A DNA stretch of 45,306 nt, taken from Phycisphaerales bacterium. GTDB taxonomy: Bacteria; Planctomycetota; Phycisphaerae; Phycisphaerales; UBA1924. Positions 10,388 to 18,584 of this stretch are shown here, piece by piece. The DNA lies in contig JAJDDG010000048.1 in the NCBI GenBank assembly GCA_029260435.1, positions 1 to 45,306 of the forward strand, read 5' to 3'. Position numbers and translations under genes: made by a program. Below the pieces are notes generated by a model. The model searched no databases, had not been told where the DNA came from, and saw nothing but the letters and a program-made list of their open reading frames with translations. Each line of letters begins with the position of its first letter. Position 1 is the first letter of the stretch.

Positions 10388-11323
10388 TCACGCCGCGGAT
10401 CGATCGGATGCTGAGTCATCCCCATGCTCTGCTGCTGCTTCCCCGTCAGGGAGCATGATGGAGAATGTCGTTCCCTCGCCCGGCGTGCTCTGCACGCTGA
10501 TCGTCCCGCCCACTTCTTCGATCAGGCGTTTGCAGATCGTCAGCCCGAGTCCGGATCCTTCGGGCGTCTCGTTCTCGTCAACCCCGGAAAAGAACGGCTC
10601 AAAGACCTTGTTCTGGATATCCTGAGATATCCCGTGTCCTGTATCCGAGACCAAGATCGCGACTCCCCCGCTGCTCTTGATCTGGTCGTGCTGAGGATTC
10701 CTAGTGGGGGTGGTTGTGGGGGGGTTCCACGTGGAACGCTCACCACGGATCACCAACGAGCCCGCCTTCGGGCGCATCGCCTTGCACGCGTTCAGCAGCA
10801 GATTCAGAAACACATGCTGCAGCGCGATCGGCTGGATCCCCGCCCGGAGCCCATCTTCGATCTCGTATGTGCACGAAATCCCGTCTTTTTCGGGTGTCCG
10901 CGCCATACAGGTCAGCGCCTCATCCAGCACGCTTTGCACAGAGCACGAGGAATCATCCGAACCCTCACGGGTGAAACCCAGGAGAGCCGAGGCGATATTT
11001 GCAGCCTTATCCGTCGTGTTGAGTGATTTTTCCAGCGCCTTGGAGACAAGATCCTTGTCGTCCATATCGTGCAGTGCGAGCTGGGCATAACTCATGACGG
11101 GCGTCAACAGATTGTTGAACTCGTGGGCAATAGTGCCCACCAGCGTGCCCAGCATCACAAGCCGATGCGATCGGGCCAGCTCCTTTTCGAGCCGCTCCGC
11201 TCGCTCGCCGAGTTCGTCGATGCGTCGGAGCAGACGCTCCTCGTCGTAGACCGATGTCTTGGGATTTTCGGACACCACTGGTACACACCTCATCTCACGA
11301 TTCGGAGCTGAACAACACTCCAT
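10388..11323 (-). CDS. Soluble sensor histidine kinase
   Basis: 311 residues, no membrane segment or sensor domain. A coiled coil (residues about 25-50) leads into the HisKA domain with the H-box GTIAHEFNNLLTPV. The HATPase domain follows with N-box FLNLLLNACKAM, G1 SDTGHGIS, F-box VFEPFFSG and G2 GSGLGLTICKRL. The motifs are complete, so it should autophosphorylate; no response regulator is in the window. Between N-box and G1 there is a Pro/Thr-rich insertion of about 25 residues (WNPPTTTPTRNP and neighbours), which the family does not normally have. Its DNA carries a parS-like palindrome at 10724-10737. An alternative ATG lies at 11293; neither start has a good ribosome site. Confidence 0.88.
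   Translation of the reverse strand: MECCSAPNREMRCVPVVSENPKTSVYDEERLLRRIDELGERAERLEKELARSHRLVMLGTLVGTIAHEFNNLLTPVMSYAQLALHDMDDKDLVSKALEKSLNTTDKAANIASALLGFTREGSDDSSCSVQSVLDEALTCMARTPEKDGISCTYEIEDGLRAGIQPIALQHVFLNLLLNACKAMRPKAGSLVIRGERSTWNPPTTTPTRNPQHDQIKSSGGVAILVSDTGHGISQDIQNKVFEPFFSGVDENETPEGSGLGLTICKRLIEEVGGTISVQSTPGEGTTFSIMLPDGEAAAEHGDDSASDRSAA
10703..10737 (+). repeat. parS: 35-bp repeat copy 1, ending in a parS-like palindrome
   Basis: The last 14 bases (10724-10737) are GTTCCACGTGGAAC, a perfect palindrome equal to the core of known chromosomal parS sites. The preceding 21 bases are G-rich. The whole 35 bp matches 11598-11632 at 33 positions in the same orientation, differing only at 10711/11606 and 10728/11623. 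It lies inside the histidine kinase gene 1.2 kb from parB. Binding by the neighbouring ParB is inferred. Confidence 0.8.
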
Positions 11324-11388
11324 CCTCGCTGCAAAGGTGGTATCGACGCGCTTCGATTAAATCCTCACCCCGTCAAGACGGGGGGGTG

Positions 11389-11892
11389 CTATTCGCGGCT
11401 GCTGAGCCAGCCTGGGCGGTTTGTGTCGCCCAGGTCACCTCCGGAAACCAACCATGCCCTGATAACTTCTGGTCTGAGATCCAAGTCGCCCAGCGCCGCC
11501 TGCTCCACCCATTCGAATTCGATGTGCCCCTCTTGGCTCTGAACCACCCGAGGAGCATCGCTATCACTCGCGGGGGCCATATTGGCGTCGTCCGAGCAGT
11601 GGGGGGGGTTGTGGGGGGGTTCTACGTGGAACACCAGGTTGATCTCATGCCGGGGCTTGCCATTCTGGGTGAACATCTGCTCACACACGAGCAGGCACTC
11701 CCCCGCTTTCATAAGCAGCCCCGTCTCCTCCATCAGTTCGCGTTCAAGGGCTGCCCCACTCGTTTCCCCAGCCTCAATATGTCCCCCGGGAAGGTAGGCG
11801 TATCCCTCTTTGATATTCCTGCAGACCAACACCCATCGCCCCTGCTGGATCAGCCCTCGCGCAATGAGTTCGATCTTCTTCGTGTCTCCCAT
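11389..11892 (-). CDS. NUDIX hydrolase
   Basis: 167 residues from this start. It has a complete NUDIX box GGHIEAGETSGAALERELM followed by EETGL (Gx5Ex7REUxEExGU), which binds Mg2+ and cleaves nucleoside-diphosphate-linked substrates; the substrate is unknown. FEWVEQAALGDLDLRPE is a typical C-terminal segment. Between them is an extra Pro/Asp-rich loop (HVEPPHNPPHCSDD...) whose DNA holds the second parS-like repeat, in another reading frame from the one in the kinase gene. The frame opens at 11976. AGGAG at 11902-11906 favours ATG 11892 (nine-base gap) over 11898 (three bases). It is divergent from parB with an 84-bp gap and upstream of the kinase on the same strand (65-bp gap). Confidence 0.88.
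   Translation of the reverse strand: MGDTKKIELIARGLIQQGRWVLVCRNIKEGYAYLPGGHIEAGETSGAALERELMEETGLLMKAGECLLVCEQMFTQNGKPRHEINLVFHVEPPHNPPHCSDDANMAPASDSDAPRVVQSQEGHIEFEWVEQAALGDLDLRPEVIRAWLVSGGDLGDTNRPGWLSSRE
11598..11632 (+). repeat. parS: 35-bp repeat copy 2, ending in a parS-like palindrome
   Basis: GTTCTACGTGGAAC at 11619-11632 differs from the palindrome at 10724-10737 by one base, and the 21 G-rich bases before it by one more. It lies inside the NUDIX gene, about 350 bp from the parB start. Confidence 0.75.
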
Positions 11893-11976
11893 AACCATTG
11901 TCTCCTGCCTTCGCATCATCGGTTCACCGGGCGTACAGTGGTCGGGAATTCGGTAGGGGGCTTCGAGGACACGCAC

Positions 11977-12939
11977 ATGAGCAAACCCACCAAACCGCGT
12001 CTCGGGCGAGGTCTATCCAGTCTGTTGTCATCGACAATGGAAGTAGAGGTGCCAACCGCTTCACCTGCTAATCAAGAAGCCACACCAACTTCGATATCCC
12101 CCCATTCGGGTGATGATCGCCCCGATGTCCGCTGGATCCAGATCTCACAGATCTCCGTCAGCCCATTCCAGCCCCGTCGTCAGCCCGAGCAGGCAGAGCT
12201 TGAAACCCTCGCCGCCTCGATCCGTTCGATGGGGGTCATGCAGCCGATCCTCGTCCGCCCAAAACTCCACGACGGCGCAGCACAAGCAGCAGCGGGGTGG
12301 GAGCTGGTCGCGGGTGAGCGCCGCTGGAGAGCCGCTCAGCTCGCCAAGCTGGAAATAATCCCGGCGTCCATCATCGATATCGATGATAAAGAGGCAGCCG
12401 AATGGGGCATCGCTGAAAACCTGCAGCGTGAGGATCTCTCCGCGATCGAGCAGGGGTGGGCGCTGCGCCAACTTGTAGACCGATTCGGGCAGACGCACTC
12501 CGAGATCGCATCACGCATTGGCATCGCGCGGGCGAGCGTCTCGAACCTCATCCGACTGACAGATCTCGAAACCGATCTACAGGAAATGATCCTGCGGGGT
12601 GATCTCTCCGCCGGGCACGCAAAGGTGCTACTCGGGATCGATTCCGTGCAGGCCCGCCAGCGTTTTGCGCTGCAAACAGTGAAGCACGCATGGAGCGTCC
12701 GCGCTCTGGAATCCGCGATCAACAAAGCGGATCAGACCAACACCGCCAAGCCCGCGCACCAAGGCGAACAACCCGCGAATATCGTCGAGCTCGAGCGCCA
12801 ACTCGCCGAGCACCTTGGCACAAAGGTCAGGCTGCGTACCGCCCGCGACGGCAAACGCGGTTCCCTCACTATCGAATTCTTCGGGCCCGATGGGTTCGAA
12901 GATCTCGCCTCCCGCCTCGGCTTTGTCATGCGCTCCTGA
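11977..12939 (+). CDS. parB: Chromosome-partitioning protein ParB
   Basis: 320-residue CTP-dependent DNA clamp that loads at parS and spreads to organise the origin region. The N-terminus KPRLGRGLSSLL is the usual ParA-contacting peptide. Then come ParB box I with SPFQPRR, the CTP-binding GERRWRAAQ, NLQREDLSAIEQG, and a helix-turn-helix HSEIASRIGIARASVSNLIRL; the C-terminal dimerisation part ends ...SLTIEFFGPDGFEDLASRLGF. The ATG has GAGGA seven bases upstream; the frame is open far upstream but without ParB-like sequence. No ParA is next to it: the P-loop ATPase at 17.5 kb is Mrp-type. Two parS-like sites lie 0.35 and 1.2 kb upstream. Confidence 0.96.
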   Translation: MSKPTKPRLGRGLSSLLSSTMEVEVPTASPANQEATPTSISPHSGDDRPDVRWIQISQISVSPFQPRRQPEQAELETLAASIRSMGVMQPILVRPKLHDGAAQAAAGWELVAGERRWRAAQLAKLEIIPASIIDIDDKEAAEWGIAENLQREDLSAIEQGWALRQLVDRFGQTHSEIASRIGIARASVSNLIRLTDLETDLQEMILRGDLSAGHAKVLLGIDSVQARQRFALQTVKHAWSVRALESAINKADQTNTAKPAHQGEQPANIVELERQLAEHLGTKVRLRTARDGKRGSLTIEFFGPDGFEDLASRLGFVMRS

Positions 12940-17471: not shown

Positions 17472-18584
17472 ATGCCATTCACCAAAGCAGATGTCATCGT
17501 CGCCGCTTCCGCGGTCACCCTCCCCGACAAGCGCACCCTCGCGGACGCAAGGCTGGTCCACGCCGCCCAACTCTGCGACGGCTTCGCCAAAGTCCAGCTC
17601 GTGCCGATCCCGCAGGCAATCGTCGCCGAGATCACGCGCCGCGTGCAGCACGCCGTGAGCACCGCCGCGCAGCAAGCGGGCGAACCACTCCAGAGCGTGA
17701 ACGTCGAGTTCGTTGATCCAACCAAAGCACACAATCCCGGCGCTCCGGGCAGCAGTGGGGGGGCGAGCGAGAAAGCCGGGAGCTGGGGCGACGCGAAGAT
17801 CATCGCCGTCGGCGCGGGCAAGGGCGGTGTCGGCAAGTCCACTATCTCTGTAAACCTCGCCGTCGCGCTTGCACGCAAGGGCTTCGTCGTCGGCCTGCTC
17901 GATGGCGATATCTATGGCCCCTCCATGCCGACCCTCCTCGGGCTCGACGCAATGGACACTATCGTCCACGGCAGCCAGCTCCAAACGTTCTACGTCCACG
18001 GCGTCAAAGCAATGACCATCGGCAAGCTCGTCGATGCGGACAAACCACTCATCTGGCGCGGCCCGATGGCGCACGGCGCGTTCAAGCAACTCGCCGAACA
18101 AACCGCCTGGGGCGAACTCGACTACCTCATTGTTGACCTTCCACCCGGCACGGGCGACGTCCCCCTCACCATGGCGCAGCTCATGCCCGTGACCGGCGCA
18201 ATCGTCGTCTGCACACCACAGAAAGTCGCGCAAGACGACGCCGTCCGCGCCGTCCGCATGTTCCAACAGCTCAACATCCCTCTCATGGGCGTCGTCGAAA
18301 ACATGAGCTACTTCATTGGAGACGATGAAAAAACATACGACATCTTCGGCAGAGGCGGCGCCGAACAGATGGCCCAGCGCATGGGCCTGCCCTTCCTCGG
18401 CGCGATCCCCATCAACATGAAACTCCGCGCCAACTCCGATAGCGGTAACCCCACCGCGAACTTCGAAGACTCGGGCGACGAACTCGCTGGTGCCCTGCAA
18501 ACCCTCGCCGAACGCGCCGAGAGCGAAGCCGCCGTCGCCTCCATGCAGAAACAAGGTGCCGCTCCAAAGCTGACAATCAGCTAG
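17472..18584 (+). CDS. mrp: Mrp/NBP35-type P-loop ATPase lacking the CxxC
   Basis: 370 residues. Mrp (ApbC) proteins carry Fe-S clusters to target enzymes. A degenerate N-terminal MIP18/DUF59-like part (residues 1-85) and a Gly/Ser linker precede the ATPase domain with deviant Walker A GAGKGGVGKST, DGDIYGPSMP, and DLPPGTGDVPLT. After ENMSYF, most Mrp proteins continue C-P-x-C; here it reads IGDDEKTYDIFGRGG, so the usual cluster-binding cysteines are absent. It could be an Mrp relative that works without a bridging cluster, or a different P-loop regulator. A TATCAT hexamer ends nine bases before the ATG; no Shine-Dalgarno. Its last 8 bp overlap the end of rmuC on the other strand. Confidence 0.9.
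   Translation: MPFTKADVIVAASAVTLPDKRTLADARLVHAAQLCDGFAKVQLVPIPQAIVAEITRRVQHAVSTAAQQAGEPLQSVNVEFVDPTKAHNPGAPGSSGGASEKAGSWGDAKIIAVGAGKGGVGKSTISVNLAVALARKGFVVGLLDGDIYGPSMPTLLGLDAMDTIVHGSQLQTFYVHGVKAMTIGKLVDADKPLIWRGPMAHGAFKQLAEQTAWGELDYLIVDLPPGTGDVPLTMAQLMPVTGAIVVCTPQKVAQDDAVRAVRMFQQLNIPLMGVVENMSYFIGDDEKTYDIFGRGGAEQMAQRMGLPFLGAIPINMKLRANSDSGNPTANFEDSGDELAGALQTLAERAESEAAVASMQKQGAAPKLTIS

Follow-up and report, generated by a model that had tools for sequence, protein, structure and literature searches.

parB, its neighbouring genes and two parS-type palindromes

The window, i.e. the whole stretch of 45,306 nucleotides analyzed here, represents one entire contig (C48) of an assembly that measures 3.12 Mb and is 92% complete. 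It carries a parB gene, a NUDIX hydrolase gene divergent from it and, farther on, a histidine kinase gene [Table 1]. In agreement with a preliminary description of this DNA, two stretches of 35 bp in the same orientation, 10703-10737 and 11598-11632, were found to be identical at 33 of 35 positions (94% over 35 bases in a BLAST alignment), each ending in a parS-type palindrome situated at most 1.3 kb from parB. One palindrome, hereafter parS-A, lies within the kinase gene and is a perfect match to the 14-bp core of the chromosomal parS type, GTTYCACGTGRAAC; the other, parS-B, lies within the NUDIX gene and deviates from it by one base. Also as described, the two are read in different frames, the first G of the palindrome being at codon position 2 in the kinase gene and at codon position 3 in the NUDIX gene. 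The search of the assembly for the palindrome, which had been proposed as a check, returned GTTYYACGTRRAAC solely at the positions of parS-A and parS-B, and such a concentration of few sites by parB is a property of chromosomal parS.

Table 1 Features of the parB locus (coordinates of the window).
Feature	Coordinates	Strand	Remarks
Histidine kinase gene, host of parS-A	10388..11323	-	Pfam HATPase_c E 2e-24, HisKA E 1e-5
Flank of parS-A	10703..10723	.	C-rich on - strand; codes part of Pro/Thr-rich loop
parS-A	10724..10737	.	Perfect palindrome GTTCCACGTGGAAC; codes S-T-W-N, codon phase 2; position and phase as in other genera
NUDIX hydrolase gene, host of parS-B	11389..11976	-	Pfam NUDIX E 1e-12; true start may be further in
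Flank of parS-B	11598..11618	.	C-rich on - strand; codes start of Pro-rich loop
parS-B	11619..11632	.	GTTCTACGTGGAAC; codes V-F-H-V-E, codon phase 3
parB	11977..12939	+	Divergent from NUDIX gene; ParB_N/HTH_ParB/ParB_C; start codon at 11977; CTP motif GERRWRA

The ParB protein encoded in the window is matched by solved structures of ParB, such as 6t1f of Caulobacter (E 1.6e-36), and, besides its CTP motif, harbors an Arg aligned with R173 and a Gly aligned with G201 of Caulobacter ParB. This pair of parS-type specificity residues was found by Jalal et al. to be conserved among ParB proteins and to differ in Noc (PMC7383237). Other DNA-contact positions of the protein are atypical (171 = I, 172 = A, 204 = K); at 171 and 172, ParB and Noc alike usually have a Lys and a Ser, both conserved and in contact with parS (PMC7383237). 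Across the family, ParB was seen to have Leu or Ile at position 171 and mostly Asp or Glu at position 172, where the window's protein has Ile and Ala, respectively. A search beside parB for ParA-type Walker motifs, in the window and in 54 loci of the family (L093-L146), found none, the only two Walker motif matches, at 17820 of the window and in L098, being Mrp-like; a parA gene next to parB, which is usual albeit not obligatory for chromosomal parS, was thus not present. Judged by all of the tests applied except that of an adjacent parA, parS-A and parS-B are putative parS sites to which ParB is predicted to bind. A second, weak HTH_ParB match was observed elsewhere in the same genome (contig C171:36686-36937; L405).

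Conservation of the two sites and of their codons

The NUDIX-kinase-parB region was compared across members of the same family (Phycisphaerales, Planctomycetota) at 54 loci, nearly all of them from different genera; kinase orthologues adjoin the NUDIX gene in about 40 of these loci. A palindrome with no more than one mismatch occupied the orthologous position of the NUDIX gene in 42 of 53 genera and that of the kinase gene in 30 of 39, and the exact pattern at these positions was read from codon position 3 in the former (V-F-H-V-E) and from codon position 2 in the latter (S-T-W-N). Since the phases are the same in relatives, the phase difference between the two sites is a property of the family. 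Of the 163 genomes of the family, 50 had the strict NUDIX-parS pattern, and a sample of 237 genomes from the order's other families yielded no match to it. Roughly one fifth to one quarter of the genera had no site with up to one mismatch at either position, and neither the parS-A nor the parS-B position is thus indispensable. On these comparisons, both intragenic parS sites are ancestral in the family rather than recent insertions.

The codons at the two sites showed an extreme bias. At the Glu column of the NUDIX site, GAA was used in 43 of 44 sequences, the remaining conserved Glu columns of this protein having GAA in 149 of 469 cases (32%; p about 1e-20; binomial, phylogeny ignored). TCC accounted for 35 of 36 codons at the Ser column of the kinase site but for 17 of 117 at the Ser columns used for comparison (p about 1e-28; binomial, phylogeny ignored). 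GTA in the NUDIX site occurs in the window's genome alone and corresponds to the one-base mismatch of its palindrome. With codons frozen to this extent, it is the DNA that is constrained at parS-A and parS-B.

The preliminary description had further stated that both proteins gain a Pro-rich loop where their families normally have none. Relatives do carry loops at these places, and the segment following the palindrome is hypervariable in the family, ranging from 6 to 40 residues in NUDIX and from 4 to 65 residues in the kinase. The loops of the window, at 27 and 24 residues versus family medians of 12 and 11, are long yet not unique, as long Pro-rich loops occupy the same place in other genera (L104, L111). 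A restriction of the loops to parS-bearing sequences was rejected because their lengths do not differ between sequences with and without parS (medians of 12 and 13, respectively, for NUDIX, and of 12 and 11 for the kinase). Loop variation is independent of parS, and the loop is thus not an insertion brought along by the palindrome.

Origin of the shared C-rich flank

That the shared flank lies outside known parS, as had been pointed out, is correct, and most palindromes of the family lack it. In the window, 20 of the 21 bases of the parS-A flank are as in the parS-B flank. When NUDIX and kinase flanks were compared in all combinations (24 x 24), the window's own pair was the most alike of 576 pairs and the only one in which the first 12 flank bases were identical (12/12). 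Identity at 20 of 23 flank positions was reached in 6 of 200,000 shuffles of one flank that kept its C-richness, indicating that the similarity exceeds that expected from C-richness alone. In the whole set, the window included, flanks were slightly more similar within than between genomes (p 0.002-0.05, depending on flank length and comparison). The common C-rich flank is the sole feature particular to the window's genome, and local recombination between the two sites is the most likely means by which one of them acquired the flank of the other. Because both palindromes predate the window's genome, copying of a short tract would be the simplest account of the similarity. Independent slippage of C-runs could also have made similar flanks, G or C runs of at least 6 being common in the window (44 within 45 kb).

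Taken as a whole, the locus very probably contains a pair of genuine parS sites of the chromosomal type, retained by the family within the NUDIX and kinase coding sequences beside parB, which are predicted to load ParB and whose flanks in the window were probably made alike by local copying. ParB would load at both sites as a CTP-dependent clamp and slide outwards to form the partition complex, on a chromosomal segment that presumably lies near the origin. The host genes would accommodate the DNA site inasmuch as each phase gives a tolerable peptide, V-F-H-V-E forming a NUDIX beta-strand and S-T-W-N opening a variable loop of the kinase ATPase domain, while selection for the DNA site would fix the codons. 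The variable loop after both sites would have turned C-rich in the window's genome, and the palindrome common to both would have seeded gene conversion or ectopic recombination that made the flanks alike, with point changes afterwards, including the C-to-T in parS-B. A DNA segregation site would thereby fix codons of two unrelated proteins, family-wide and in two phases, so that the cost of an intragenic site becomes measurable; the shared flank, for its part, suggests that one parS site can overwrite the sequence around another.

The preliminary description had read the repeat as a parS-carrying element that inserted into genes near parB and was tolerated in-frame, a view assessed here as the independent insertion of a small element into both genes. 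Its parS-like and ParB-associated character and its presence in two genes and two frames stand; its recent insertion does not. Identity at 33 of 35 positions in the same orientation, extending beyond the shared palindrome, the length of the two loops relative to the family medians and the existence of dispersed parS with fixed partner motifs in sister genera would all suit an insertion, but palindromes occupy the orthologous codons, in the same phase, in dozens of genera, usually without the flank. The orthologous sites largely refute the insertion reading, and mobile-element insertion was rejected for the window's genome on account of these sites and of the lack of additional copies. Empty sites were not found in relatives, which have the palindrome at the same codons, the V-F-H-V-E segment of NUDIX belongs to a conserved fold, and loops of similar length, including long ones, occur in relatives without the palindrome, an outcome that the preliminary description itself had named as telling against it. 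Such an element would work in the manner of Rickettsia palindromic elements, which are mobile, about 100-150 bp long and inserted in-frame in many genes. The window resembles them in that short palindromic DNA is read within coding genes in more than one frame, and differs from them in having two ancestral sites at orthologous codons with no further copies in the genome. We regard an insertion of this kind as very unlikely. The probability that the palindromes are coding coincidences, V-F-H-V-E being a common NUDIX strand, and the flanks unrelated C-runs is next to nil: sites with up to three mismatches are no commoner in the window than in shuffled sequence and G/C runs abound there, but chance would leave unexplained the freezing of codons, the occurrence of two sites in two phases, their confinement to the parB locus and the rarity of the flank identity among shuffles.

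G/C tracts next to parS

The flank might alternatively be a functional extension of parS, with a G-tract 5' and a C-tract 3' affecting ParB loading or sliding, to which the two flanks converged. Among 87 unique family sites, outward C runs of at least 5 within 12 bp numbered 17, whereas 3 ran the opposite way and the background predicted 2.0; seven genomes were listed with GGGGGT directly before parS and no genome with CCCCCT (G018 and G093 excluded); and nearly all of the 22 sites of G018 follow the order G-run, parS, C-run. In the 163 genomes of the family, a G-run precedes parS in 19 and a C-run in 9. Most family sites, including most of those in NUDIX and kinase genes, nonetheless have no such run, the excess is partly due to coding (Pro codons after V-F-H-V-E; recF Trp-Gly-Val codons in Gammaproteobacteria), the sense is opposite in G093, and in the window the T/A base usual between run and palindrome is missing. 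A role of the G/C tract as part of parS is accordingly a lead, and one that we consider improbable as the explanation of the flank. In G093 (L346-L350), parS is often followed by AGGGGG, the reverse of the C-tract sense seen elsewhere.

The notion of a C-run flank across bacteria was discarded: a scan of named genomes mostly returned Gammaproteobacteria, in which the tract consists of the recF Trp-Gly-Val codons before V-F-H-V-E. Three loci (L215, L236 and L252), from an Opitutae MAG, a Verrucomicrobia MAG and a MAG labelled Polynucleobacter meluiroseus, the last probably mis-binned, share 35 identical bases before parS (ending GGGGT) and continue with ACCCCCCT. Our literature search found no paper on G-rich flanks of parS.

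Comparison with known systems

The Noc binding sites (NBS) of Bacillus are short palindromes bound by a ParB-type CTPase. The sites of the window are likewise short palindromes paired with a ParB-type protein, whose binding is predicted, but their sequence is that of parS, not NBS, and the ParB has R173/G201, not Q173/R201; a Noc/NBS identity was rejected, neither Gln173/Arg201 nor the NBS sequence being found.

The recF gene of Pseudomonas aeruginosa contains both parS1 and parS2 (PMC5521831), and 9 of the 10 parS sites of this species are within coding sequences (PMC4368675). As with parS1 and parS2, the window has a pair of sites of the same type (TGTTCCACGTGGAACA) in coding sequence near parB, and the recF sites of Gammaproteobacteria also encode V/M-F-H-V-E, as does the NUDIX site. 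The window differs from P. aeruginosa in its host genes, NUDIX and histidine kinase, in having one site in another phase (S-T-W-N), in the lack of a parA adjacent to parB and in the C-rich flank common to both sites. The pair is thus the planctomycete counterpart of the intragenic parS of P. aeruginosa, in other host genes. Among the matches of the literature search, no paper on parS in this bacterial group was found. In recF of Gammaproteobacteria, the mid-gene parS was seen to encode DWGVFHVE, and the C-terminus of the protein carries a (V/M/L)FHVE motif once more (L210, L223, L229, L233, L263, L266, L218).

Dispersed parS copies in sister genera

Exact copies of GTTCCACGTGGAAC were found spread over many contigs in sister genera, namely 22 in G018 (L326-L345), 10 in G083 (L351-L357), 9 in G093 (L346-L350), 9 in G003 (L358-L362) and 8 in G033 (L363-L365). 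About half of these dispersed copies are intergenic by a rough gene call. Most of those of G018 are flanked on both sides by G-runs and C-runs, many of them accompanied by a partner motif, CTCTGCGAAGCGC or CTCTTCAAAAGGTGCGC, and after several of those of G083 a GCGC-rich motif comes at a distance of about 13 bp, succeeded by TTCAGAAAC-like bases. The partner motifs of G018 and G083 are fixed and almost confined to the vicinity of parS, on which ground their being a wider repeat that merely carries parS was rejected. The dispersed copies may be either mobile repeats or composite binding sites, and they offer a place to study changes in parS number.

One may go further and view parS of the family as a spreading repeat, with flanks copied between sites as in the window, the composite of parS and fixed partner motif multiplied to 8-22 places of the chromosome in some genera, and a mobile centromere site sometimes settling in genes. 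We hold this to be possible, if rather doubtful; were it true, the centromere site would itself be a mobile repeat. Additional ParB paralogues were rejected as the cause of the dispersed parS because a single HTH_ParB match was present in each of the many-site genera G083, G003, G033 and G093, whereas the window's genome, with two sites, has two. Extra, weaker HTH_ParB matches were also observed in G018 and G005.
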